Below, piece by piece: positions 24,418 to 56,594 of a DNA stretch of 64,000 nt. How positions within the stretch are numbered: the stretch's first letter is position 1; every line of letters begins with the position of its first letter. Source of the DNA: Syntrophaceae bacterium (GTDB taxonomy: Bacteria > Desulfobacterota > Syntrophia > Syntrophales > PHBD01); assembly GCA_013177825.1 (NCBI GenBank), contig JABLXX010000003.1:310001-374000 (forward strand). The letters run 5' to 3'. The translations under genes were made by a program, and so were the position numbers. A model generated the notes under the pieces. The model had not been told where the DNA came from. It saw only the letters and a list, made by a program, of their open reading frames with translations, and did not search any database.

Positions 24418-24924
24418 TTATTTATGGCTACCGGCCGAAATGTCGATGCGGAAGAGGTTCGCACCCAGGCAATGGGTGTAGCTGGCCTGACAACTTGATC
24501 GAGGGTATATGTCGAGGATGATGTTCAGTTCTCCGTTCGTCCCGTTGGCTCCGGTTCGAATCCGGCGCAGAAACTTACCGCCTGCATGAATGCTTTTCTG
24601 AATCCTGGGACTAAGTTTTGCATTCTTGAGGATCACGCTTATCTTTGGCTCATCTCCATCCAGCTTAAGCAGGAACGCTGGTTTCTGATAGCTGTCAAAT
24701 TGGATGAAGACACTTTCCGTCCCACCCGACTCAAGTTTCATGCGGATGTTTTTCACCAGGATGGGGCCGTTTTGGCTGAACAATTTCAGCGACGAATCCT
24801 TTCCTGAAGATTTTCGATGCCCGTGAACCGGTGAAGCAGCCGCCACATCAGAGGAATTCGATGCCACGGGATGGATGGGCGCAGCGGTTGGATGGCTGGG
24901 GTCACTCTTGGCGCGGAATGTCAT
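24418..24924 (-). CDS. Hypothetical protein with AMIN-like C-terminal region
   Basis: A 168-residue protein starting at ATG 24924 behind a good GGAGAAAAT site; longer in-frame starts lack one. The first 55 residues are Ser/His/Pro-rich and probably disordered. The rest alternates hydrophobic beta-like strands (ILVKNIRMKLESGGTESVFI, PAFLLKLDGDEPKISVIL, GELNIILDI) resembling an AMIN-type domain, which binds cell-wall or envelope partners. There is no clear signal peptide, so localisation is unresolved. It stands alone between the tRNA terminator and the PAS-LuxR gene. Confidence 0.6.
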   Translation of the reverse strand: MTFRAKSDPSHPTAAPIHPVASNSSDVAAASPVHGHRKSSGKDSSLKLFSQNGPILVKNIRMKLESGGTESVFIQFDSYQKPAFLLKLDGDEPKISVILKNAKLSPRIQKSIHAGGKFLRRIRTGANGTNGELNIILDIYPRSSCQASYTHCLGANLFRIDISAGSHK

Positions 24925-39608: not shown

Positions 39609-40637
39609 ATGAATGATCCGAAGGTTGTCGATCCTTCCCGGCAGAGCGACTGGAATGAGGTCCTCTGCCGGATTCCAGGGAGTTCCTTCTTTCACACATC
39701 GACCTGGGCTCACGTCCTCCAGGAATCCTACCATTACGAACCCCTTTATTTTGCGATCCGTCAGAAAGCTGACCTGATAGCCGTCCTCCCTGTAATGGAA
39801 GTAGACAGCCCACTCACGGGTAAAAGAGGGGTTTCCCTGCCCTTCACCGATTACTGCGAACCGATTGTCTCGGATCATGCACAATTCGGGGAGCTCTTTG
39901 CCGCTGCAACCGCTCTGGGAAGGGAACGCCGCTGGCGCTACCTTGAATTCAGGGGGGGGGGGCGTTTCTTGAGCGAAAAGGAGCCTTCCGAATGGCATTA
40001 CAGTCACACCCTTGATCTCACTGCGAAAGATATCAAGTCGCTTGCCGATGCCACCCGCCGGAACATCAAAAAGGCCGAAAAGCAGAACCTTGACGTAAGC
40101 ATCTCGACATCGCCGGACGCCATGACGACGTTCCAACGTTTGAATGCGATCACCAGAAGACTCCACGGACTCCCTCCCCAGCCCTGCCGTTTCTTTCAAC
40201 GCGTTTACGACCACGTACTTTCCAAAAAAATGGGGTTCATCGTTCTGGCATCGCTGAAGGGAACGGCAATCGCTGCCAATGTCTATTTTACATTCGGGGA
40301 TCAGATTCTCTATAAATACGGTGCCTCGGACCGGGCTTTTCAGCACCTTCGGGCGAGCAACCTGGTCATGTGGGAAGCCATCAAGTGGGGCCGTGATCAC
40401 GGGTACCGGGTCCTCCATCTTGGCCGCACGGAGCCGGGCAACAAAGGGCTCCGGCAGTTCAAGGCGGGATGGGGTGTGCAGGAAGGGCTCATCCGGTATT
40501 ACCGGTACGATCTTCGAGAGAATGCGTTTGTCAAAACACCCGAGGTCGTCAAGCCGATATACCAGAAGATATTCGGCAAGCTACCCATACCGATTTTGAA
40601 CCTGCTGGGAAGCTTGCTATATCGCCATATGGGATGA
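39609..40637 (+). CDS. FemAB-type GNAT acyltransferase of XrtA-linked EPS loci
   Basis: A 342-residue protein with tandem GNAT-like folds of the FemAB/FemX kind, matching the PEP-CTERM-system-associated FemAB family (TIGR03019 type). Recognisable parts are FHTSTWAHVLQESYHYEPLY near residue 28 and the C-terminal GAIAN..YKYGASDR-like region near 228-240. FemAB relatives use aminoacyl-tRNA to add amino acids to peptidoglycan peptides, but donors of the EPS-linked group are not established. It may aminoacylate or acylate a sugar amine. A run of nine G near 39953-39961 is within the coding frame. Confidence 0.82.
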   Translation: MNDPKVVDPSRQSDWNEVLCRIPGSSFFHTSTWAHVLQESYHYEPLYFAIRQKADLIAVLPVMEVDSPLTGKRGVSLPFTDYCEPIVSDHAQFGELFAAATALGRERRWRYLEFRGGGRFLSEKEPSEWHYSHTLDLTAKDIKSLADATRRNIKKAEKQNLDVSISTSPDAMTTFQRLNAITRRLHGLPPQPCRFFQRVYDHVLSKKMGFIVLASLKGTAIAANVYFTFGDQILYKYGASDRAFQHLRASNLVMWEAIKWGRDHGYRVLHLGRTEPGNKGLRQFKAGWGVQEGLIRYYRYDLRENAFVKTPEVVKPIYQKIFGKLPIPILNLLGSLLYRHMG

Positions 40638-45235: not shown

Positions 45236-46411
45236 ATGAACACACCATTAGAAAAAAGCATTTTAAAACTTGAAAAGTGGGTAGAAGATCATAACTACAA
45301 AGGTTACGATCCCGCCGACGGCCTCACATCCTACTTAAGGCCTTTGACCTTTGGCAATCTGTTTCTCGATCGTCTCCTCATGCAGCTCATCTGGCGAAGC
45401 CCAATCAACCTCCGACCGCTACTGGGCGTTAAGCCTCTCGACTCCAACATCGGCCGCGGCTACATGGCTTGGGGCTACCTGATTATGTTCCAACTGACGG
45501 GTGACCAGGCTTACAAGAACAAGGCGGTTTCATGTCTTGAGTGGCTCAGTCATAATAAAGCGCCGGGTTTTGAGCACTACAGTTGGGGTAAAATGTTTGA
45601 CTTTGCCAGTCGTGGTGGCCGGCAGGGCAAATATGAACCGATCACCGTATGGACCAGCCTGATCGGGCAAGCATTTCTCGAGGCCTATGAAACCATTGGT
45701 GATGAAAAATACCTCAATATTGCCGACAGCATTTGCCAGTGGATTATAGAACGCCCCAGAAATAAGACAGATTCGGGCTTCTGCATCAATTACACACCCT
45801 TCGGTGAAGGTGATTGCACCATACACAACCAGAGCATGCTGGCTGCATCCATGCTTGCACGGACCGCTAAGCATAATCATAACAAAGAATATATAAATGT
45901 CGCTAGTGAAGCTATGAAATATACCTGTACCCGCCAATTGCCGGACGGGGCATGGTATTACGGAGAAGACCCCAAGTATCATTGGATCGACAATTTTCAC
46001 ACAGGATACAATCTGGATGCTTTAAAGTGTTATATTGAAAGCACAAACGATAAAACGTATGAAAAAAACTTAAAAAAAGGCTTTGATTTCTTTAGAAAAG
46101 CTTTTTTTGAACCAAACGGAAGGCCAAAATATTATCACAACAGAACATATCCAATAGACAGCCAGTGCTGTTCACAGGCAATCGAAACGTTGGCCAATTT
46201 TTCCGATAATGATCCATCGTCGTTGGAACTGGGAGTGCGCGTTGCAAGCTGGACGATTGAAAATATGCAGGATCGAACCGGCTGTTTCTATTTCATGCAA
46301 TACCCGATGATGACTCTGAAAGTGCCGATGATTCATTGGGCACAGGCGACCACATACAAGGCATTGGCGGTTTTACTATTGAAAATTAAAGAGAAAGAAA
46401 CCAGCAGGTAG
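45236..46411 (+). CDS. Six-hairpin (alpha/alpha) glycosidase/epimerase-like protein
   Basis: A 391-residue cytoplasmic protein built of repeated helical hairpins with conserved aromatic positions (GYMAWGYLIMFQLTGD, GYNLDALKCYIEST, AQATTYKALAVLLL), the pattern of (alpha/alpha)6-barrel enzymes such as polysaccharide lyase, glucuronyl C5-epimerase or unsaturated-uronide hydrolase relatives. No signal peptide is present. Catalytic residues cannot be named with confidence. In an EPS locus it may modify uronic-acid units or be a scaffold. It begins seven bases after the preceding glycosyltransferase. Confidence 0.65.
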   Translation: MNTPLEKSILKLEKWVEDHNYKGYDPADGLTSYLRPLTFGNLFLDRLLMQLIWRSPINLRPLLGVKPLDSNIGRGYMAWGYLIMFQLTGDQAYKNKAVSCLEWLSHNKAPGFEHYSWGKMFDFASRGGRQGKYEPITVWTSLIGQAFLEAYETIGDEKYLNIADSICQWIIERPRNKTDSGFCINYTPFGEGDCTIHNQSMLAASMLARTAKHNHNKEYINVASEAMKYTCTRQLPDGAWYYGEDPKYHWIDNFHTGYNLDALKCYIESTNDKTYEKNLKKGFDFFRKAFFEPNGRPKYYHNRTYPIDSQCCSQAIETLANFSDNDPSSLELGVRVASWTIENMQDRTGCFYFMQYPMMTLKVPMIHWAQATTYKALAVLLLKIKEKETSR

Positions 46412-46416
46412 GAAAA

Positions 46417-47289
46417 GTGGTTGTTAATGATAAAGAAATAAAAGTATCAGGCAAAATTATCAAGATAGCCGAATTGAAAGAAGAATGGGATGTCGATATC
46501 GAGGATCCGGAAACATTCATCAGGGATCTTAAAAGAAACGGCATCAAAGCGGATATTTTTACCTTCATGCAGAGGCTTCCTGAATCGAAACCGCGATTCA
46601 ATTATTATATGGAATGGGACAGCATCGCCGCCATCCCGATTACGACATATGATTACTGGATAAAAAAGCAGGTTGTCCAGAACTCACGAAAGAAGATCGG
46701 CTTGGCCCAGAGAAAAGGTGTTACAGTAAGGCCGATGGATTTTAATGATGAACTCGTAAAAGGTATTTTGGATATCTACCATGAAACACCTTTGTTACAG
46801 GGCAAGCCCAACCGGCAGTATAGGACAGATTTTGAAACGGCAAAACGATTGAATTCTACCTTTTTGGACAGGGCACAGTTCATAGGTGCCTTCTACGAAG
46901 GCGAACTCATAGCATACATTAAATTGGTAAGAGCCGGAAAATTCATGAGAACCATGGGAATTCTGGCAAAAACAGCTCATCGTGAGAAGGGCGCGATGAA
47001 TCTCCTGGTGGCGAAAGCGGTGGAAATATGTGTCGAAAAGAAGATGCCGTATCTCATCTATGCAAAGTTCAAGTACGGGAAAACGGGTAGTCTAACGCTT
47101 ATGGAATTCAAGAGAAATCTTGGATTTGAGAGCATTATTCTGCCGAGATATTACGTTCCTCTAAATATTATCGGGAAAGTGATATTGAAATTAAAATTAC
47201 ACCGTGAGATGGTCGAATACTTACCGGAAAAAATGGTAAGAAAACTGCTTGAAATGAGAACCCGTTGGTACGAGAAGAAATATTCCTGA
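46417..47289 (+). CDS. GNAT/FemAB-like acyltransferase
   Basis: A 290-residue protein whose central part (about 90-250) fits a GNAT/FemAB-like fold: KKIGLAQRKGVTVRPMDFND, GAFYEGELIAYIKLVRAG and GAMNLLVAKAVEICVEKKMP. It should transfer an acyl or aminoacyl group, possibly to an EPS sugar amine. GTG 46417 is taken as start, five bases after the upstream stop. The C-terminus is basic (RTRWYEKKYS) and may contact the membrane. It is the second FemAB-like gene in the locus and lies 2 kb before the tRNA-like copies. Confidence 0.68.
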   Translation: MVVNDKEIKVSGKIIKIAELKEEWDVDIEDPETFIRDLKRNGIKADIFTFMQRLPESKPRFNYYMEWDSIAAIPITTYDYWIKKQVVQNSRKKIGLAQRKGVTVRPMDFNDELVKGILDIYHETPLLQGKPNRQYRTDFETAKRLNSTFLDRAQFIGAFYEGELIAYIKLVRAGKFMRTMGILAKTAHREKGAMNLLVAKAVEICVEKKMPYLIYAKFKYGKTGSLTLMEFKRNLGFESIILPRYYVPLNIIGKVILKLKLHREMVEYLPEKMVRKLLEMRTRWYEKKYS

Positions 47290-47345: not shown

Positions 47346-49181
47346 GTGCCGGGCATAACAGGCATTATAAGCAAAAGCCTGCAAGAGAAAGACAAAATGG
47401 ACCTGCAGCTTATGGTCGAGTCCATGTTGCATGAATCTTTTTATGTCTCCGGTACATATGTGAACGACAAGATCGGCGTATGTGCCGGCTGGATTTGCCA
47501 TGAAGGTTCTTTTTCGGACTGCATGCCTGTCTGGAACGAGAAAAAGAATATTGTAATGATATTCTTTGGCGAGAATTTCACGGACCTGGAATTGTTTGAC
47601 CAGCTGAAAGCAAAGCATCACCGATTTGATAATTCTAATGCCAGTTATATTATCCATTTATACGAAGAATACGGTGTCGATTTTTTGCGAATGATGAATG
47701 GCTGGTTTAGCGGGATATTGATAGATATACGGGCTGGTAAAGTTATCATATTCAATGACCGTTATGCATTGCAGAGAATCTTCTATTACAAAAGCAAGAA
47801 CGCATTCTACTTCGCGTCCGAAGCAAAGGCACTGCTGAAAGTATGTCCTGAATTGAGAGAGATAGACCTGAAAGGGTTGGGTGAAATGATCAGCTGCAAC
47901 TGCACCTTGGAGCATAGGTCATTATTCAGGAATGTCTTTCTGTTGCCAGGCTCCGCCGCGTGGTGTTTCGAACAGGATGGCAGCTTGAAAAAAGACTGCT
48001 ACTTCGAGACGGGGACTTGGGAAAATCAGCCATGGCTTGAAAAAGATTTTTTTTATGAAAGACTGAAGGAGACTGTCTCAAAAATTCTACCCCGCTATTT
48101 TCGCTCCACGCAAAAAATTGGAATATCCTTGACCGGGGGCTTGGACACCCGCGTTATCATGGCAAATATGGACATGCCGGCCGGAAAGTATCCGTGCTAC
48201 ACGTTTGGCGGCATGTACCGCGATTGCTATGACGTGAAAGTGGCACGAAAGGTTGCCGAGACCTGTCAGCAAGCGCACCACACATTATATCTCGACAACC
48301 AATTCCTAGAAAACTTCAATAAGTATGCAGAAAAGACCAGTTACATTTCTGATGGATACTTTGATATCTCGAATTCATATGAGATCTACCTGAATAACCT
48401 AGCCAGAAAAATTGCCCCGATCCGCATAACGGGAAATTATGGCGGCGAAATTCTGAGAGGCATCGAGGGCATGTTGAGAGCCAGTCCTTTCAACGAAGAA
48501 CTATATAGTCCTGATATAAAAAAAAATGTTCGGGATGCTGGTGATACCATAGCCGCCTTGTACCGGTCGGCAGGGCATCCCATGACAACGAATCTTTTCA
48601 GGGAAATACCTTTATTCCGCAATCATGGATTTGTATGTGAGCAGTCTCAATTAACGCCTCGTACTCCTTATCTGGATAATGATCTTGTCTCATTAATGTA
48701 CAGGTTTCCCGTTTCTTTTCGAAGCACTAAAGATCTGACACTTCGACTCATCAGGGATGGAAACCAGACTTTGGGAGAAATACCTACGGATCGAGGTGTT
48801 GGTGGAAATGCAACTTTTCCGATGTCGTCATTAATGAAAGCGTATTATGAATTTCTGTTCAAAGCCGAGTATGCTTATAATTATGGAATGCCACAGTGGC
48901 TGGCCAAAATAGATCATGTATTTATGTCTATGCACTTTGAGAAGTTATTTCTTGGTCGTCATAAATTTGCCCATTTCCGTATATGGTACCGTGATGAACT
49001 GGCAGATTACGTAAAAAGTATATTGCTGGATGACAAATCGTTGGCAAGGCCTTATTTAAATAGGAAGGAAGTAGAAAAAATGGTACACGGCCACACAAAA
49101 GGTGATGCAAATTATACAACTGAGATTAGCAAGCTATTAAAATTAGAACTGATTCATAGACTCTTCGTTGAAAAGAATTGA
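47346..49181 (+). CDS. Asparagine-synthase-like protein lacking the glutaminase cysteine
   Basis: A 611-residue member of the AsnB family. The N-terminal half (about 1-200) is a class II glutamine amidotransferase fold, but the start reads MPGITGII where active enzymes have MCGI; the nucleophilic Cys2 is replaced by Pro, so it should not hydrolyse glutamine. The C-terminal half has a pyrophosphatase loop SLTGGLDTRVIMA near residue 260 and a later PRTPYLDNDLV, so ATP-dependent adenylation may remain. It could join an amine directly to a carboxylate of the EPS. The start is GTG 47346. It is the last gene before the tRNA-like region. Confidence 0.83.
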   Translation: MPGITGIISKSLQEKDKMDLQLMVESMLHESFYVSGTYVNDKIGVCAGWICHEGSFSDCMPVWNEKKNIVMIFFGENFTDLELFDQLKAKHHRFDNSNASYIIHLYEEYGVDFLRMMNGWFSGILIDIRAGKVIIFNDRYALQRIFYYKSKNAFYFASEAKALLKVCPELREIDLKGLGEMISCNCTLEHRSLFRNVFLLPGSAAWCFEQDGSLKKDCYFETGTWENQPWLEKDFFYERLKETVSKILPRYFRSTQKIGISLTGGLDTRVIMANMDMPAGKYPCYTFGGMYRDCYDVKVARKVAETCQQAHHTLYLDNQFLENFNKYAEKTSYISDGYFDISNSYEIYLNNLARKIAPIRITGNYGGEILRGIEGMLRASPFNEELYSPDIKKNVRDAGDTIAALYRSAGHPMTTNLFREIPLFRNHGFVCEQSQLTPRTPYLDNDLVSLMYRFPVSFRSTKDLTLRLIRDGNQTLGEIPTDRGVGGNATFPMSSLMKAYYEFLFKAEYAYNYGMPQWLAKIDHVFMSMHFEKLFLGRHKFAHFRIWYRDELADYVKSILLDDKSLARPYLNRKEVEKMVHGHTKGDANYTTEISKLLKLELIHRLFVEKN

Positions 49182-49223: not shown

Positions 49224-49299
49224 GTCACCATCATCTAGCAGTCCAAGACATCAGCCACCCAAGCCGAAGACAGGGGTTCGAATCCTTTTGGGGACGCCA
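49224..49299 (+). repeat. tRNA-Glu-like copy 1, degenerate
   Basis: A 76-base sequence with tRNA-Glu outline. Its last 39 bases are identical to copies 2 and 3, but the 5' half has six changes: A4 opposes G69 in the acceptor, A10 opposes C25 in the D-stem, the D-loop GG is lost, the anticodon stem has an A-C mismatch and the loop is CACCCAA. It is unlikely to be a working tRNA. It lies 32 bases before the ATG of the first ATP-grasp gene. Confidence 0.8.
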
Positions 49300-49331
49300 A
49301 AAAAATACTTTTTCTTAAGGTTTCATTGTTT

Positions 49332-50429
49332 ATGACAACGATGTCGAGGCTGTCTGGCAGATTGACCATAATTAGCCACAACATTTATCGGATTCTCTCC
49401 GATCCGGCGCGGAAAAGCATGCCCCAGATGGGCTGGGAATTTCTCCAGTGCAGTATAGCATCGAGAAGCATTGCCATTCATTACCTCACCAGCTTTCTAT
49501 ATCGACGGCACATTCACAACATTTATGACTATGTTTCCAGAAGAGAAGCGGATGAAGTTCAGGAGAAGATCAATGATCCAAAGCTCTCCGACATCGTAAG
49601 CAATAAATTGTCTTTTCTTGAGCATTTTGAAAGGGGCGGCTTTCCCGTTCCCCGCCTCCTCGGCTATAACATATTGAACAAGATGTATTTTAAAAATGAT
49701 AATCAGTGGAAATCCAAAGATTTATCTTCGTCGGAGAAATTGAAGGAGTGCATGGAATGCCTTCTGGAGAATTGGAGAATTGAAGAGCTTTTCATGAAAC
49801 CGATCCGCGGGAGTCAGGGATCCGGTGCAAATAAAGTCGATCGTAACAAACTTCATTCGAAAATCGATATCGAGGGCTTATTCCAATCAGTCATTTCAAA
49901 TTGCTACGTGTTTCAAGAGGTTGTGGGTCAGCATCCTGATCTCTCCATTCTCAACCCGAGCTCTCTGAATACCATGCGCATTGACACATTCAGGGCACCA
50001 GGATCGAAAGCTGAGATCCTTTCCGCCTTTCTCCGTGTGGGGGGCAAGGAAAATATTGTGGATAACGTTTCAGCGGGAGGTGTGCTTGTTGGTGTCCATT
50101 TGGATAGTGGAAGACTCAAGGAAAATGCTCTGAATTTTCTTCATGGTTCGAAAACATTTGGAATATTTAAAGTCAATCCAATCAATGGGATTCCTTTTGA
50201 TGGCTTTCAGGTACCCCTTTTTGATGAAGTTAAAGAAACCATCATACGAGCGGCTGAATATCTTCCATCGGCTTTGATCGGTTGGGATGTGGCTGTTTCA
50301 TCTTCAGGTCCCACGCTGATGGAAGCGAATGTTCTCTACTACGGACTTACGAGCTCTGATATTGCCTATGGAGGATACAAGAAAAATCCTGTCTATCAAA
50401 AAGCTTTAGTGCATGCTAAACACATATAG
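49332..50429 (+). CDS. Sugar-transfer-associated ATP-grasp ligase, copy A
   Basis: A 365-residue ATP-grasp protein of the sugar-transfer-associated class (ATPgrasp_ST, PF14397 type), expected to join a carboxylate to an amine with ATP, probably decorating a cell-surface glycan. Diagnostic parts are HPDLSILNPSSLNTMRIDTF, the glycine segment NVSAGGVLVGVHLDSG and the acidic metal-binding end IGWDVAVSSSGPTLMEAN. FMKPIRGSQGSGANKV near residue 157 is the ATP-binding loop. ATG 49341 aligns with the start of copy B and is an alternative start. The protein is close to copy B (by eye roughly three quarters identical), so the pair arose by recent duplication together with its upstream tRNA-like sequence. 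Confidence 0.82.
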   Translation: MTTMSRLSGRLTIISHNIYRILSDPARKSMPQMGWEFLQCSIASRSIAIHYLTSFLYRRHIHNIYDYVSRREADEVQEKINDPKLSDIVSNKLSFLEHFERGGFPVPRLLGYNILNKMYFKNDNQWKSKDLSSSEKLKECMECLLENWRIEELFMKPIRGSQGSGANKVDRNKLHSKIDIEGLFQSVISNCYVFQEVVGQHPDLSILNPSSLNTMRIDTFRAPGSKAEILSAFLRVGGKENIVDNVSAGGVLVGVHLDSGRLKENALNFLHGSKTFGIFKVNPINGIPFDGFQVPLFDEVKETIIRAAEYLPSALIGWDVAVSSSGPTLMEANVLYYGLTSSDIAYGGYKKNPVYQKALVHAKHI

Positions 50430-50519
50430 AATAATGCGCTTCATCAAGTTATTATTTAACTTTCCATAGAATTAGACATCTCTAAGAAAACCAGTACTTC
50501 ATGTTGATGCAATGACAAT

Positions 50520-50595
50520 GTCCCCATCGTCTAGCGGTCCAGGACATCGGCCACTCAAGCCGAAGACAGGGGTTCGAATCCTTTTGGGGACGCCA
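50520..50595 (+). tRNA. tRNA-Glu-like copy 2 (CTC, A33)
   Basis: A complete 76-base cloverleaf: acceptor GTCCCCA/TGGGGAC fully paired, D-stem GTCT/GGAC, anticodon stem TCGGC/GCCGA fully paired, T-stem AGGGG/CCTTT with two G-T pairs, discriminator G and encoded CCA. The loop CACTCAA gives anticodon CTC (Glu) but has A at position 33, where U is almost universal. Identical to copy 3 over all 76 bases. No promoter is visible, and it lies 40 bases before the ATP-grasp copy B start. Whether it is charged or used in translation is unknown. Confidence 0.75.
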
Positions 50596-50635
50596 ATCAT
50601 GTTTATCGAAGCTTCACAGTTTTATAGAGAAAATC

Positions 50636-51721
50636 ATGGGTCTCTCTGAAAGACTGACCATTATCCGACACAACTTTCATATGATTCTCTCCGATCCGGA
50701 GCGAAAAAGCGTTCCCCGGATGTGCTGGGAATTTCTCCAGTGCAGTGTTGCATCCAGAAGCCTTGCCATTCATTACCTGACCAGCTTTTTATATCGACGC
50801 AGCATCAATAACATTTTTGACTATGTTTCCAGGAAAGAAGCGGATGAAGTGCAGGAGAAGATCAATGATCCGAAGCTTTCCGATATTGTAAGCAACAAAT
50901 TATCATTTCTTGAACATTTTGAACGAGGCGGCTTTCCTGTTCCCCGCCTTCTCGGCTACAACATACTGGGCAAGATGTATTTGAAAATTGATCATCAGTG
51001 GGAGTCCGCCGAGTTATCCTCGCCAGAGAAGTTGAAGGAGTGCATGGAATGTCTTCTGGAGAGTTGGGGCTTTGAAGAGCTTTTCATGAAACCGATCCGT
51101 GGGAGCCAGGGATCTGAGGCATATAAAGTCACCCGAGACCACCTTCACAAGCGGACCGACATGGATAACCTGTACGATTCTGTCAGCAAAAATTATTTTG
51201 TTTTTCAAGAGGTTGTGGATCAGCATCCGGATCTTGCCATTCTCAACCCAAGCTCCCTGAATACCATGCGGATTGACACGTTCAGGGCGCCGGGAACCAA
51301 AGCCGAAATCCTTTCAGCCTTCCTCCGCGTGGGCGGTTTGGGGAACTGGGTGGACAACACTTCAGCGGGTGGTGTGTTCGTCGGTATTCATCTGGAAAGC
51401 GGCAAACTGAAAAAAGTTGCAATGAACCTCCTTCACGGATCTCAGATATTTGGAACATTTGAAGCCAATCCGGTAAATGGGTTTGTTTTTGAAGGATATC
51501 ATGTGCCGCTGTTTCGCGAAGTGAAAGAAACCGTCATGCGCGCGGCCGAATATCTGCCATCGGCCTTGATTGGATGGGATGTGGCGGTCGGCCCCTACGG
51601 TCCTGTACTGATCGAAGCGAACTGCCTTTATTACGGACTCACAGGTTGCGATATGGCGTATGGAGGGTACAAGAAAAATCCTGTTTATAAAAAAGTATTG
51701 GCCTATTTAAACAAACGATGA
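50636..51721 (+). CDS. Sugar-transfer-associated ATP-grasp ligase, copy B
   Basis: A 361-residue ATPgrasp_ST-type ligase, closely related to copy A. The key segments are HPDLAILNPSSLNTMRIDTF, NTSAGGVFVGIHLESG and IGWDVAVGPYGPVLIEAN, with the ATP-loop region FMKPIRGSQGSEAYKV. The ATG at 50636 starts the shared MGLSERLTIIRHN segment. Its stop is one base before the GTG of the GNAT gene, so the two genes are coupled. Likely partners are the EPS uronic acids made by genes at 38-42 kb, whose carboxylates could accept amide bonds; that is inference. Confidence 0.83.
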   Translation: MGLSERLTIIRHNFHMILSDPERKSVPRMCWEFLQCSVASRSLAIHYLTSFLYRRSINNIFDYVSRKEADEVQEKINDPKLSDIVSNKLSFLEHFERGGFPVPRLLGYNILGKMYLKIDHQWESAELSSPEKLKECMECLLESWGFEELFMKPIRGSQGSEAYKVTRDHLHKRTDMDNLYDSVSKNYFVFQEVVDQHPDLAILNPSSLNTMRIDTFRAPGTKAEILSAFLRVGGLGNWVDNTSAGGVFVGIHLESGKLKKVAMNLLHGSQIFGTFEANPVNGFVFEGYHVPLFREVKETVMRAAEYLPSALIGWDVAVGPYGPVLIEANCLYYGLTGCDMAYGGYKKNPVYKKVLAYLNKR

Positions 51722-51722
51722 T

Positions 51723-52430
51723 GTGAATCGACTTTCAAATTCTAACACGAACATGAAACACAAGAAGGTCTTCACATTAACGACATCGCTGCAGATGAAT
51801 CATGAAGATCAGGCGCGATTGGACTTCAAGCCCGTCCCTGATCTTGAAATTGTTCGTGCTACACAGGAGGATGCCAATACAATCAAGGAATTTTATCAAG
51901 GTATTGGAGAGAATCATTTATGGGTTGATCGAAGAGGCTGGGAAATAGATGATTTTGAAATGCAAATAGCGCAAGAGCGAACCATTATATGGCTGGCGAG
52001 GCTGAAAGGGAGGCCCATCGGATTTCTGGAAGCCTACCATTATCCAGACAACCGGATTCAGATCATTTTTCTCGGCATTCTCGATCAGTATTCGGGACGC
52101 GGGATCGGGAAGCATTTGTTGAGCCATGGAATCTCTTCTGCCTGGCAACGCAGACCAAGCAAAATGATCGTTCATACAAGAAGTTACGATGGGGAGCATG
52201 CCCTAAATAATTATGTAAAACGCGGATTCCAGATAACCAAAGTGCGTCCACAGATCATAGCTGTGCCACCGGCTATGCAAGAAACAATTACGAAACTGAT
52301 CATCACTGCCAAACGGCGGGGTGTTTATCCTTCGTTCGCAAAACGCCTGGAGGCCCGCTTGAGGCAATGTTTTCTAGGGCGCAGTGCGCGATGGATTTTC
52401 CATAACGTGATGAAGAGCAACAGCCCATAA
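51723..52430 (+). CDS. GNAT N-acetyltransferase
   Basis: A 235-residue single-GNAT-domain protein (about residues 40-185). The acetyl-CoA loop is seen as DQYSGRGIGKHLLSHGI, and IGFLEAYHYPDNRIQIIFLG forms the central strands. A basic C-terminal tail follows (TAKRRGVYPSFAKRLEARL). It would transfer an acyl group to an amine. GTG 51723 lies next to the stop of ATP-grasp copy B; ATG 51753 is an alternative start. Its place between two ATP-grasp genes suggests it acts on the same glycan or amino-acid substituent. Confidence 0.78.
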   Translation: MNRLSNSNTNMKHKKVFTLTTSLQMNHEDQARLDFKPVPDLEIVRATQEDANTIKEFYQGIGENHLWVDRRGWEIDDFEMQIAQERTIIWLARLKGRPIGFLEAYHYPDNRIQIIFLGILDQYSGRGIGKHLLSHGISSAWQRRPSKMIVHTRSYDGEHALNNYVKRGFQITKVRPQIIAVPPAMQETITKLIITAKRRGVYPSFAKRLEARLRQCFLGRSARWIFHNVMKSNSP

Positions 52431-52502
52431 AAAATCTTGTAATACCCTTGCAGATAAGAATATTTGTCATTCTGTGTCTTTTAACCATAGTCAGTTAAAA
52501 TT

Positions 52503-53651
52503 ATGGATAAAAAAAAGATCGTATCCCGTTTGCTAAGAATAATCAGAAATGGGAGAATCGTTTATTCAGACGAGGAGAGAAAATCTCTGCAACAAATTAC
52601 AAAAGAATTTTTTATATCATCTTTAAAATCTCGTTCAATAGCTTCTTACTACTTCACAAGCCTTCTCTATAAAAAAAATATTATAAATTATCTCGATTAT
52701 ATAAGTCACAAGGAGTGGCAGTACATGCAGCGAGTTATGTGTGATGATTCTACACATGCCATACTCGGGGATAAATTATATTTTCATAAGCACTTTGAAG
52801 GTTTTAACATACCGATGCCCCGGTTGCTTGCGTACAACCTGCGGGAAAAAGTTGTTGTGTCTGGTGAGAAAGGATGGACTTCACATGAAGTAACAACACC
52901 CGAATCTCTTGACATTATCTTAAAAACACTATTGTTCAGATCATCGAATCACGCAATCTTCATGAAGCCGACCCTTCTTTCCGGTGGTCACGGAATCGTA
53001 AGATTTTCTGATGAGAACGTTTCTCTTCAGAAGCACCAGCTAACTGATTTATTGGAGAAAATCACGTCCGATTCGTACATATTCCAAGACGGAGTAAAGC
53101 AACACGGCGATTTGGAAATGCTTAATCGGACGACATTAAATACGATCAGAATCGACACATTTAAAGCTTGTGGACAAAAACCTGAAATCATCTCTGCTTT
53201 CATTCGAATTGGTAGAGAGGGGAGCTTTGTCGATAACATAACGGCAGGAGGTTTCTACGTCGGTATCAATATGGAGACTGGAAGGTTAAGACCTTATGGG
53301 GTTCTTGAGATCCCCGATGGGGGAATGCTGCTGACGCATCACCCGGTTTCCGGCATGAAGTTCGAGGGCTTCCTCATCCCATATTATGAAAAGGTCAAGT
53401 CATTGGCGATAGAAGCCGCCGATTGCCTTCCCCAATCGCTGATTGGTTGGGATATCGGCGTATCAGAAAGTGGTCCTGTCTTGATAGAAGGCAACACGGT
53501 TTATTACGCAATGCAGTGCAGCGATGTTGCATATGGCGGATATAGGAATAATCCGGTTTACAATAAAGTAACGGATTATGTTACGAACAAAAAAAGAAAG
53601 ACGTCGTATGCAAGGATTAGCCATGTTAATCTTAGCGCAATATGTTTTTGA
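52503..53651 (+). CDS. Sugar-transfer-associated ATP-grasp ligase, copy C
   Basis: A 382-residue ATPgrasp_ST-type protein, clearly homologous to copies A and B but much more diverged and more AT-rich. It has HGDLEMLNRTTLNTIRIDTF, NITAGGFYVGINMETG, HHPVSGMKFEGFLIP and IGWDIGVSESGPVLIEGN, which match the family closely; FMKPTLLSGGHGIVRF is the ATP-loop region. The last 20 residues are basic and differ from the other copies. It ends six bases before tRNA-like copy 3. It may have a different acceptor or donor from A and B. Confidence 0.82.
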   Translation: MDKKKIVSRLLRIIRNGRIVYSDEERKSLQQITKEFFISSLKSRSIASYYFTSLLYKKNIINYLDYISHKEWQYMQRVMCDDSTHAILGDKLYFHKHFEGFNIPMPRLLAYNLREKVVVSGEKGWTSHEVTTPESLDIILKTLLFRSSNHAIFMKPTLLSGGHGIVRFSDENVSLQKHQLTDLLEKITSDSYIFQDGVKQHGDLEMLNRTTLNTIRIDTFKACGQKPEIISAFIRIGREGSFVDNITAGGFYVGINMETGRLRPYGVLEIPDGGMLLTHHPVSGMKFEGFLIPYYEKVKSLAIEAADCLPQSLIGWDIGVSESGPVLIEGNTVYYAMQCSDVAYGGYRNNPVYNKVTDYVTNKKRKTSYARISHVNLSAICF

Positions 53652-53657
53652 TAGAAT

Positions 53658-53733
53658 GTCCCCATCGTCTAGCGGTCCAGGACATCGGCCACTCAAGCCG
53701 AAGACAGGGGTTCGAATCCTTTTGGGGACGCCA
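53658..53733 (+). tRNA. tRNA-Glu-like copy 3 (CTC, A33)
   Basis: Identical base for base to copy 2, with the same A33 and CTC anticodon and encoded CCA. It starts six bases after the stop of ATP-grasp copy C, and 36 bases separate its end from ATG 53770 of the beta-helix gene. That gene may in fact start inside its 3' end. Confidence 0.75.
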
Positions 53734-55128
53734 AAACAAAAGTTTTCCAGAATCTACCCGATAATCTTCATGGCGTTGTTTTTCTGTACTGCAATCTCAT
53801 CAAATGTAAATGCCGGAATGGTCCGTGCCGAGAGCTGTTCGCAAGAGCATATCCTGACAGCAATCCAATCGGCTGAAACAGGCGATACCGTCGTCGTCCC
53901 TCCCGGCTTGTGCACATGGACTGCCGGCATCAAGATTCCGGAGGATAAGAAAATAACCCTGAGAGGCGCAGGGATTGATAAGACGATACTACATGTTGGC
54001 GACCCGGGCAGAACGAGAGTGACTTTGAGTCTGGGACGATCCGGGTCCAGAATAGAGGGCTTTACTTTTGACAACATGTTTTTAAAGATGAACGGTACAG
54101 GTTTTCGGATTGATCACAACAAATTCTATTCAGACAAAGGTGGTCGCACAGGCATTATTGCGGATGAAACCGCTGGAAAAGCGTATGAAATACCAACGGG
54201 CCTCATAGACCATAATCAGTTTTACAACGGCCGCATCATTGCACATGGTGGCGCTATGCTGGCAAATACAGAATGGACCCTGCCGACGGGTTTGGGAACT
54301 GGTGAAAATGCCGTTTATATTGAAGACAACATATTTATCAGGACGGCGTCTCCGGCGGGGAATGCAATCGATGGCAGCTATGGGGGCGCATATGTATTTC
54401 GGTACAATACGGTAGACGGTAATTATCTCGAAGCTCATTCTGTACAGGGGAACAATCGCGCTCTCAAACGATGGGAAATATACGGCAACGCGATCAACAA
54501 GGTTGCCGGAATCGTAAATTATTACGCTACCCGCCTAAGAGGGGGGACAGGAGTCGTTTTTTATAACAGCTACAAGGGGAACTGGAATCGTAGATTTGTC
54601 GCCCTCGATAATGTGCGTTGTTATAAAGATGCAGGGGAAGGAAAGTTATGTGATGGCGGTTCCAAATGGGACGGGAATGAAGACAAGACGGGTTATCCCT
54701 GCCGCGATCAGGTCGGGATGGGCCCCGATTCCGTATTATGGGTCACTTCACCACCGGGGGAATTCACGCAAGTGCATCAGCCTGCCTACTTCTGGATCAA
54801 CAGGGGCGATTCGGGCAATATCAAGGTGGACGTTATCAACAAAAGCAATGACCACATAAAAGCGAACAGGGATTACTATGAATATTCGGAAACTTTCGAC
54901 GGCACATCGGGCGTCGGTTGTGGGAGACTCGAAAACCGGCCCGCTTCGTGCGCGACGGGAGTGGCTTACTGGGCAACCACCCAATCATGTTCCAGTATGA
55001 AAGGTATGGTAGGAAAAGAACCGCCCACACCGATCACGGGAACTCTTTATAAATGCACTGCGCCTGATACCTGGAAGGCTTATTATACACCCTATCCTTA
55101 TCCCCACCCGCTGAATAAACCCGATTAG
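53722..55128 (+). CDS. Secreted right-handed beta-helix protein
   Basis: A roughly 468-residue exported protein. A parallel beta-helix, as in pectate lyase-like proteins, spans most of it: VVVPPGLCTWTAGIKIPEDK, ITLRGAGIDKTIL, GSRIEGFTFDNMF, FRIDHNKFYS, ALKRWEIYGNAINKV. Cysteines in the C-terminal half may form disulfides. A good signal peptide (KQKFSR, then IYPIIFMALFFCTAISS, cleavage near NVNA) is complete only if translation starts at TTG 53722, inside tRNA-like copy 3; ATG 53770 would cut off its basic part, and ATG 53656 would read through the whole tRNA-like sequence. It may bind, cleave or modify the EPS. No clear catalytic residues are evident. Confidence 0.72.
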   Translation: MGTPKQKFSRIYPIIFMALFFCTAISSNVNAGMVRAESCSQEHILTAIQSAETGDTVVVPPGLCTWTAGIKIPEDKKITLRGAGIDKTILHVGDPGRTRVTLSLGRSGSRIEGFTFDNMFLKMNGTGFRIDHNKFYSDKGGRTGIIADETAGKAYEIPTGLIDHNQFYNGRIIAHGGAMLANTEWTLPTGLGTGENAVYIEDNIFIRTASPAGNAIDGSYGGAYVFRYNTVDGNYLEAHSVQGNNRALKRWEIYGNAINKVAGIVNYYATRLRGGTGVVFYNSYKGNWNRRFVALDNVRCYKDAGEGKLCDGGSKWDGNEDKTGYPCRDQVGMGPDSVLWVTSPPGEFTQVHQPAYFWINRGDSGNIKVDVINKSNDHIKANRDYYEYSETFDGTSGVGCGRLENRPASCATGVAYWATTQSCSSMKGMVGKEPPTPITGTLYKCTAPDTWKAYYTPYPYPHPLNKPD

Positions 55129-55253: not shown

Positions 55254-56594
55254 ATGCAACCCCAATTAGCAGCATTACTCACGGTTGTTTTAATTATTTA
55301 TCTGTTCTGGATGGACAGGAATAATAACAAAGGCTTTTCCAAAGCTTTGTGGGTTCCCTTCGTCTGGATGTATTTTACTCGATCACGCAACATATCCGAG
55401 TGGTTAGACCTTCAAACCCCGGATCCTTCCTTATCCATGACTTCCATTATCGAGGGCAATCCTTTAAATAGAAATATATATACTGCTCTGTTAATTCTGG
55501 GCATCTTTGCTCTGATAAAGCGGAAAATCGATTGGCGAACGATATTTGTTAAAAACTCTTGGATTTGGCTTTATTTCATCTTTGGTGCTATCAGTATTTT
55601 CTGGTCTGATTATCCTTATGTTTCTTTCAAAAGGTTGATCAAGGCATCGTGTGTTGTAATCATGGCATTGGTAATCTTAACCGAGGCGCGTCCCTATTTG
55701 GCGATCGGTCTTATCCTGAAGCGCCTTGCTTTTATCCTTTTACCGTTGTCCGTGCTTTTCATAAAGTATTACCCGGAATTTGGTCGCGCCTACCACCATT
55801 CAACGGGTGAATTGATGTCAACAGGTGTTACGAGTCATAAGAATGCCCTGGGTGCATTATGTCTGGTCTCGGGGATTTATTTTTTGTGGAACTTGTTTTG
55901 GGGAGGAAAGAAAGAAGGTGACGCGGGACCGCGTCTGCACTTCTCCATATACATGATCATGTTCGTTATGCTCTTCTGGCTGTTCCGCATGGCAAACAGT
56001 GCAACCTCTCTGGCCTGCATGGTTGTTACCATACTTCTTTTTACAATTGCCAAGCATCCTGCATTTGTTCGGAATCCCTCGAAGCTCATTGTTTTCGGTA
56101 TTGTATGTGTTGTCATAGCCGGTCTATCGGAAATGACTTTCGGTATTAAAGAGTATGTGATTGAGCTACTGGGCAGGAAGCCAGATCTGACCACTCGAGT
56201 TCCCATGTGGGAGCACGTACTTAATCTAACTGTTGATCCTATATTTGGAGCGGGCTACGAAAGTTTCTGGCTGGGAGAGCGCTTGGCAATCATACAAGCG
56301 CGTTGGGGCGATATTGTCCAAGCGCATAACGGCTACTTAGAAATGTACCTGAACATGGGCCTAGTCGGTGTTTTTTTCATCATATGTTGGATCTTCTCAG
56401 GCCTCCTAAGTGTGAATCGACACCTCAGTATTGACTACCCGTCAGCGAATCTACGGCTCTGCTTGATTGTCGTTGTTGCATTATACAACTACACGGAGGC
56501 GACTTTTTATGGACCTAACGTCATGTGGTTGTTGTTCTTTATAGGAATTATCACTCTTCCAAATTATAAGCCAAAGATTAATCAGAATGTTTGA
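55254..56594 (+). CDS. O-antigen ligase/polymerase (Wzy/WaaL-type)
   Basis: A 446-residue polytopic membrane protein with about eleven hydrophobic segments and the Wzy_C signature in VQAHNGYLEMYLNMGLVGV near residue 361. A periplasmic loop rich in charged residues precedes it (GRKPDLTTRVPMWEHVLNL). It should polymerise or ligate lipid-linked EPS units in the periplasm, together with the flippase immediately downstream and the Wzz protein at 33.4 kb. Start ATG 55254 has no strong ribosome-binding site. Confidence 0.85.
   Translation: MQPQLAALLTVVLIIYLFWMDRNNNKGFSKALWVPFVWMYFTRSRNISEWLDLQTPDPSLSMTSIIEGNPLNRNIYTALLILGIFALIKRKIDWRTIFVKNSWIWLYFIFGAISIFWSDYPYVSFKRLIKASCVVIMALVILTEARPYLAIGLILKRLAFILLPLSVLFIKYYPEFGRAYHHSTGELMSTGVTSHKNALGALCLVSGIYFLWNLFWGGKKEGDAGPRLHFSIYMIMFVMLFWLFRMANSATSLACMVVTILLFTIAKHPAFVRNPSKLIVFGIVCVVIAGLSEMTFGIKEYVIELLGRKPDLTTRVPMWEHVLNLTVDPIFGAGYESFWLGERLAIIQARWGDIVQAHNGYLEMYLNMGLVGVFFIICWIFSGLLSVNRHLSIDYPSANLRLCLIVVVALYNYTEATFYGPNVMWLLFFIGIITLPNYKPKINQNV

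Follow-up and report, generated by a model that had tools for sequence, protein, structure and literature searches.

A conserved, unusual tRNA-Glu inside an exosortase-type EPS cluster suggests a tRNA set aside for decorating a sugar polymer

In Staphylococcus aureus, a non-proteinogenic tRNA-Gly with the T-stem pairs A49-U65 and A51-U63 binds EF-Tu weakly and is kept for the cell wall (PMC4052509, PMC8007984), and the type is recognized by those two weak EF-Tu pairs together with the replacement of G18-G19 (PMC4052509). The Bacillus cereus pseudo-tRNA tRNA-Other belongs to a larger regulatory RNA, is located at an island, and has been linked to a cell-envelope phenotype (PMC3399842). FemX-like double-GNAT proteins are encoded in reviewed biosynthetic clusters, as in the cluster described here, but the review text contains no cluster-encoded tRNA gene and the product class differs. 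The XrtA/PEP-CTERM EPS clusters (TIGR03007, TIGR03015, TIGR03018, TIGR03019, and TIGR03108) have the same core genes that surround the tRNA in the present case. To our knowledge, such clusters are not described as containing tRNA genes, and our literature search found no paper on a tRNA encoded in an EPS or FemAB cluster.

We analyzed a window of 64,000 nucleotides (G000:C3:310001-374000, where G000 is this genome) in which tRNA-Glu-like units lie within an EPS cluster. Similar to the S. aureus tRNA-Gly/FemXAB system, the locus has an extra isoacceptor with a weak T-stem that resembles the A49-U65/A51-U63 type, charging with the cognate amino acid would be expected, and a candidate user with a predicted FemX-like fold is encoded nearby. 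Unlike that system, the tRNA is of Glu and not Gly type, has lost U33 while keeping G18-G19, and is found inside an EPS cluster beside a putative transferase, whose target would be EPS instead of peptidoglycan. The locus resembles B. cereus tRNA-Other in being an odd tRNA-like element at an island, but here both conservation and duplication extend over the entire mature tRNA.

Judged from predicted genes for an XrtA-associated ATPase, a tyrosine kinase, and a chain-length determinant, the cluster is an exosortase (XrtA)-type EPS cluster. Matches to TIGR03007 (1.6e-87, above its cut-off), TIGR03015 (5.5e-86) and TIGR03018 (2.4e-63, like TIGR03015 just under the cut-off), TIGR03019-like genes, glycosyltransferases, Wzy, and Wzx surround the tRNAs. 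On the plus strand, the cluster includes a FemAB-family XrtA/PEP-CTERM-associated protein (39609-40637; PF02388, and TIGR03019 at 1.5e-38, below the curated cut-off), a C5-epimerase/GH-like core EPS gene that is syntenic in relatives (45236-46411), a FemX-like protein of double-GNAT type (46417-47289), an AsnB-like amidotransferase relative (47346-49181; PF00733/PF13537, TIGR03108-like), and, after the tRNAs, a syntenic Wzy/O-antigen ligase-like polymerase (55254-56594; PF04932).

A sequence-only reading of this DNA had placed three tRNA-Glu-like units in one direction, each 32-40 bases before an ATG, two of them preceding ATPgrasp_ST ligases and one preceding a beta-helix protein, and all of this was borne out. 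Rfam RF00005 matches, all above the gathering threshold, were found on the plus strand at 49224-49299 (copy 1, 34.4 bits), 50520-50595 (copy 2, 54.0 bits), and 53658-53733 (copy 3, 54.0 bits), with the next in-frame ATG 32, 40, and 36 bases away, respectively. Three PF14397 genes were confirmed on the same strand: ligase 1 (49332-50429, 6.5e-38), ligase 2 (50636-51721, 7e-40; 76% aa identity to ligase 1), and ligase 3 (52503-53651, 1.5e-40; 41% to ligase 2), the last of which ends six bases before copy 3 and is separated from ligase 2 by a GNAT N-acetyltransferase-like gene (51723-52430, PF00583), again as had been read. Copy 3 is followed by the gene for a secreted parallel beta-helix protein (53770-55128, plus strand; TIGR03805). 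The reading frame of this gene is open through copy 3 (53578-55128), and a better signal peptide (KQKFSRIYPIIFMALFF...) would require translation to begin within or upstream of the tRNA, at whose 3' end a TTG lies, as if copy 3 had replaced the native start.

The 4.24 Mb genome has four tRNA-Glu-like matches in total, the fourth being an ordinary tRNA-Glu(TTC) on a separate contig; with three of the four in the EPS cluster, the clustering is not due to chance. Elsewhere in the window, a perfect T-loop motif (GGTTCGAATCC) at 24553-24563, about 250 bases after a tRNA-Arg/His/Arg array, is possibly a tRNA remnant or an att site.

Copies 2 and 3, both called as tRNA-Glu(CTC) by ARAGORN, are 76/76 identical with CCA encoded in both, and form an intact cloverleaf with all four stems paired and no broken stem pair. 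Copy 1 was not accepted by ARAGORN. It has three broken stem pairs (4-69, 10-26, and 30-42), A in place of G18, the anticodon CCC with C35 in place of U35, and a fold z of +1.7. At all six positions where it differs from copies 2 and 3, those copies match the genome's ordinary tRNA-Glu(TTC), so the differences are all changes in copy 1. By its sequence, copy 1 is decayed, and the three copies therefore cannot all work as tRNA-Glu.

A search of 395 genomes of the phylum with the tRNA retrieved one further odd copy, in G291, a genome from another family. This is likewise a tRNA-Glu(CTC) with A33, is 72/76 identical to the G000 tRNA with one stem mismatch (28-44), and lies in a syntenic cluster between the AsnB-like gene and a homologue of the beta-helix gene. 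It begins 43 nt after the AsnB-like stop codon; copy 1, 42 nt after the AsnB-like gene in G000, occupies the orthologous position. Searches of 148 relatives of G291 and of G001, a genome of the same genus as G000, did not retrieve this tRNA. When 84,980 genomes were scanned with a strict pattern for a tRNA-Glu(CTC) lacking U33, only three matches came up, all unrelated; the pattern is too narrow in that it misses G291 (AGG for GGG in the T-stem). Searches of viral contigs, phages, and plasmids retrieved nothing relevant.

The AsnB-like, FemX-like, and epimerase-like proteins of G000 and G291 are 75-82% identical, with fourfold sites of these core genes 40-51% identical, and the flanks of the tRNA align between the two genomes no better than shuffles. 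At the fourfold-site rate, 72/76 identity has P < 1e-15. Given this identity against diverged fourfold sites and unalignable flanks, the tRNA is, judged by sequence comparison, under strong purifying selection. The argument is made from rate and not from covariation, since pairing had no discriminating power in simulations of random change (one broken pair after four changes and three after six were both ordinary under chance). A recent transfer of the tRNA alone is less likely, its position after AsnB (42 and 43 nt) being alike in the two genomes.

The conserved tRNA is unusual at two places. Position 33 is A, and not the near-universal U33, in copies 1-3 and in the G291 tRNA; U33 is needed for normal decoding. 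The anticodon loop reads CACTCAA in copies 2 and 3 and G291, CACCCAA in copy 1, and CTTTCAC in the ordinary tRNA-Glu. The T-stem is weak in copies 1-3, with A49-U65, G50.U64, and G51.U63 in copy 2, and that of the G291 tRNA has A49-U65 and A51-U63. Thus, the S. aureus pairs are found exactly in G291, and in G000 A49-U65 is accompanied by G51.U63; A49-U65 by itself has no weight, since it is common in ordinary tRNA-Glu. The replacement of G18-G19 seen in S. aureus is absent from copies 2 and 3 and G291, which keep both bases, and only the decayed copy 1 is without G18. For comparison, all 37 distinct tRNA-Glu of relatives, a set that was not picked for odd loops (35 TTC and 2 CTC), have T33 and a G-C pair at 51-63. 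The tRNA-Glu of loci L066 and L076 (CCTCTCAC) has an ordinary CTCTCAC loop with T33. In an actinobacterial genome bin (L034:3956-4029), a seemingly unrelated tRNA-Glu(CTC) has A33 and the loop CACTCAC.

One might suppose that this is an ordinary extra tRNA-Glu(CTC) which aids translation of GAG codons and came to be in the cluster by chance. The cloverleaf of copies 2 and 3 is intact, the Glu identity bases U35, C36, A37, and G73 and the CCA are present in these copies and in the G291 tRNA, and the genome otherwise has just tRNA-Glu(TTC). Nevertheless, with U33 missing, the T-stem weak, the tRNA lacking in G001, duplication solely inside this cluster, and recurrence at the orthologous spot in another family's cluster, we regard this as very improbable. 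The sequence-only reading had recorded neither the A for U33, the decay of copy 1, nor the tie to the AsnB-like and FemX-like core.

The sequence-only reading had also tied the tRNA to the ATP-grasp genes, and this tie was not supported. Searches with ligase 2 in sets of 60, 155, and 395 genomes retrieved few relatives, none with a tRNA, and no tRNA was found at the ATP-grasp loci of G474, G543, and other relatives. Downstream of the window, a fourth ATPgrasp_ST paralogue (L051:4417-5514, which is G000:C3:376417-377514, minus strand), 61% identical to ligase 2, adjoins an aminotransferase gene without a tRNA. Conversely, the 19.9 kb that surround the G291 tRNA contain no ATP-grasp gene. The tRNA thus goes with the AsnB-like/FemX-like core and not with ATP-grasp. 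That each tRNA supplies glutamate to the ATP-grasp peptide ligase of its own unit is suggested by the two copies that precede ligases 76% identical to one another, tRNA and gene having apparently been duplicated together in tandem, but is already largely refuted by these separate occurrences. ATP-grasp ligases use a free amino acid and ATP, which also speaks against this pairing, and we hold it to be extremely improbable.

The gene order in G291 is AsnB-tRNA-beta-helix, and that in G000 is AsnB-tRNA-ATPgrasp-tRNA-ATPgrasp-GNAT-ATPgrasp-tRNA-beta-helix. The ATP-grasp/GNAT block appears to have been inserted later at the tRNA, with copies remaining on either side, and the earlier suggestion that the units may be cassette borders holds in part, as such a history, with the block between AsnB-tRNA and tRNA-beta-helix and absent from G291. 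A stronger form of the suggestion, in which the tRNA is only a recombination or integration border moved with a horizontally transferred cluster and has no RNA function, would account for the tRNA at each end of the block and for the decay of copy 1, and tRNA genes are common as island borders (PMC3399842). However, the contrast of the tRNA with fourfold sites and flanks requires selection, the block showed no integrase gene, and the A33 loop and T-stem oddities are common to two lineages. The whole tRNA including CCA is conserved, with similarity ending at its edges (a search for homology among the sequences flanking the copies gave no signal), in contrast to the usual att site at the 3' end of a tRNA. 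We therefore consider a border without RNA function quite unlikely.

The units could also serve in the processing or regulation of the EPS operon transcript, either with RNase P and RNase Z cuts setting the ends and stability of downstream mRNAs or as part of a larger regulatory RNA like tRNA-Other. Consistent with this, the copies lie between genes in the direction of the operon, 32-40 nt before an ATG in G000, no promoter stood out in a search around them and no promoter or terminator was above chance, the acceptor and T arm are conserved, and a pseudo-tRNA within a larger regulatory RNA has precedent (PMC3399842). Still, the spacing to the ATG is not conserved, since in G291 the next start lies 260 nt away. 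Processing does not require an anticodon, and yet G000 and G291 agree at 7/7 positions of the anticodon loop (CACTCAA), an observation of little power with four changes in 76 nt. A role in processing also fails to explain why G520 has, next to its FemX-like gene, a tRNA that differs in identity (see below), and we judge such a role unlikely.

The FemX-like protein (46417-47289), with a fold predicted at moderate confidence, is the best candidate user of the aminoacyl-tRNA. Its best PDB folds in Foldseek are aminoacyl-tRNA-dependent peptide synthases, FemX, and aminoacyl-PG synthases, with E about 1e-9, prob 1.00, and TM about 0.48 against Sba18, Sbb17, and FemX, for a model with pLDDT 68. A sequence-only search with the protein retrieved GNATs alone (E 0.16), and no curated family model matched, apart from PF00583 at E 1.2e-4 in one orthologue and in neither of two others. 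In an alignment, F231-K232 is invariant in five orthologues, and a weak profile alignment pairs it with the FK of the FemAB protein from this cluster; the lysine of this motif may correspond to the catalytic Lys305 of FemX. The FemAB protein itself (39609-40637) is a second candidate user. In the AsnB-like protein, Pro2 replaces the N-terminal glutaminase Cys2 in 5/5 aligned orthologues, and the protein is thus without the catalytic Cys2 of glutamine-dependent asparagine synthetase. Because of this substitution, it is probably an amide-forming enzyme whose amine is not glutamine-derived ammonia.

Orthologues of the AsnB-like protein were also detected in G217, G520, G474, and G543. In G520, the FemX-like and AsnB-like orthologues are separated by a tRNA-Gly(TCC) (L091:2590-2665, G520:C24, minus strand). 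It retains U33, its T-stem in the standard register contains G51.U63 and two mismatches, and no similar tRNA was found elsewhere in G520 (E <= 0.01). This single example may also be a decaying tRNA. The clusters of G217 and G543 have both core genes and no tRNA, and the enzyme therefore does not depend on the tRNA. The G474 contig ends within AsnB, with no tRNA before it. A tRNA is thus found beside AsnB in three of the five readable clusters. The G543 cluster (L096, G543:C179:20000-39999) encodes two AsnB-like proteins along with FemX-like, beta-helix, and ATP-grasp genes.

Taken together, we see roughly an even chance that copies 2 and 3 are a dedicated, largely non-proteinogenic tRNA-Glu supplying the FemX-like transferase in an XrtA-type EPS pathway. 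This reading is favored by the strong conservation of the tRNA at the orthologous spot in G291; by the loss of U33 and the non-G-C 51-63 pair, common to G000 and G291 and found in 0/37 ordinary tRNA-Glu; by T-stem pairs like those of the S. aureus tRNA-Gly; by the retained acceptor stem, G73, CCA, and U35-C36-A37; by the FemX-like neighbor and the further FemAB gene; and by the odd tRNA-Gly(TCC) with a weak T-stem between the core genes of G520. Against it, the tRNA is of Glu type in two genomes, of Gly type in one, and lacking in G217 and G543, copy 1 is decayed, the G291 tRNA has its mismatch at 28-44, no promoter stands out, and the FemX-like fold match comes from a model of moderate quality, with GNATs alone retrieved by sequence. 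The earlier proposal of glutamyl-tRNA for a FemAB-type enzyme decorating EPS is thus the best supported of its suggestions, with the conserved odd tRNA, its FemX-like neighbor, and the weak T-stem in its favor, once its stress on ATP-grasp is dropped.

Sequence, conservation, synteny, odd features, and a FemX-like fold of moderate confidence form the basis in hand, from which we infer transcription, processing, charging, EF-Tu avoidance, transfer, and product. Copies 2 and 3 would be transcribed with the EPS cluster and charged by the cell's GluRS, and would deliver glutamate to the FemX-like transferase or the FemAB protein for amide formation on an EPS precursor. The added carboxylate may next be a substrate of the AsnB-like protein, whose glutaminase cysteine is absent. 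Lacking U33 and having a weak T-stem, the charged tRNA would be withheld from both the ribosome and EF-Tu. The tRNA was probably also once the insertion point of the ATP-grasp/GNAT block, with copy 1 decaying afterwards.

More tentatively, and at somewhat less than even confidence, we propose that EPS clusters can encode a private, translation-disabled tRNA of varied identity (Glu in G000 and G291, Gly in G520) for a neighboring FemX-like transferase that adds amino acids to polysaccharide. If true, a tRNA in EPS biosynthesis would be a cluster-encoded biosynthetic part, giving a polysaccharide gene set its own amino acid carrier apart from translation and extending the dedicated tRNA of the S. 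aureus cell wall to extracellular polysaccharides. An odd tRNA beside FemX-like and AsnB-like genes would then serve as a sequence test for amino acid-decorated EPS, and would open a clear experiment on the diversion of aminoacyl-tRNA from the ribosome.
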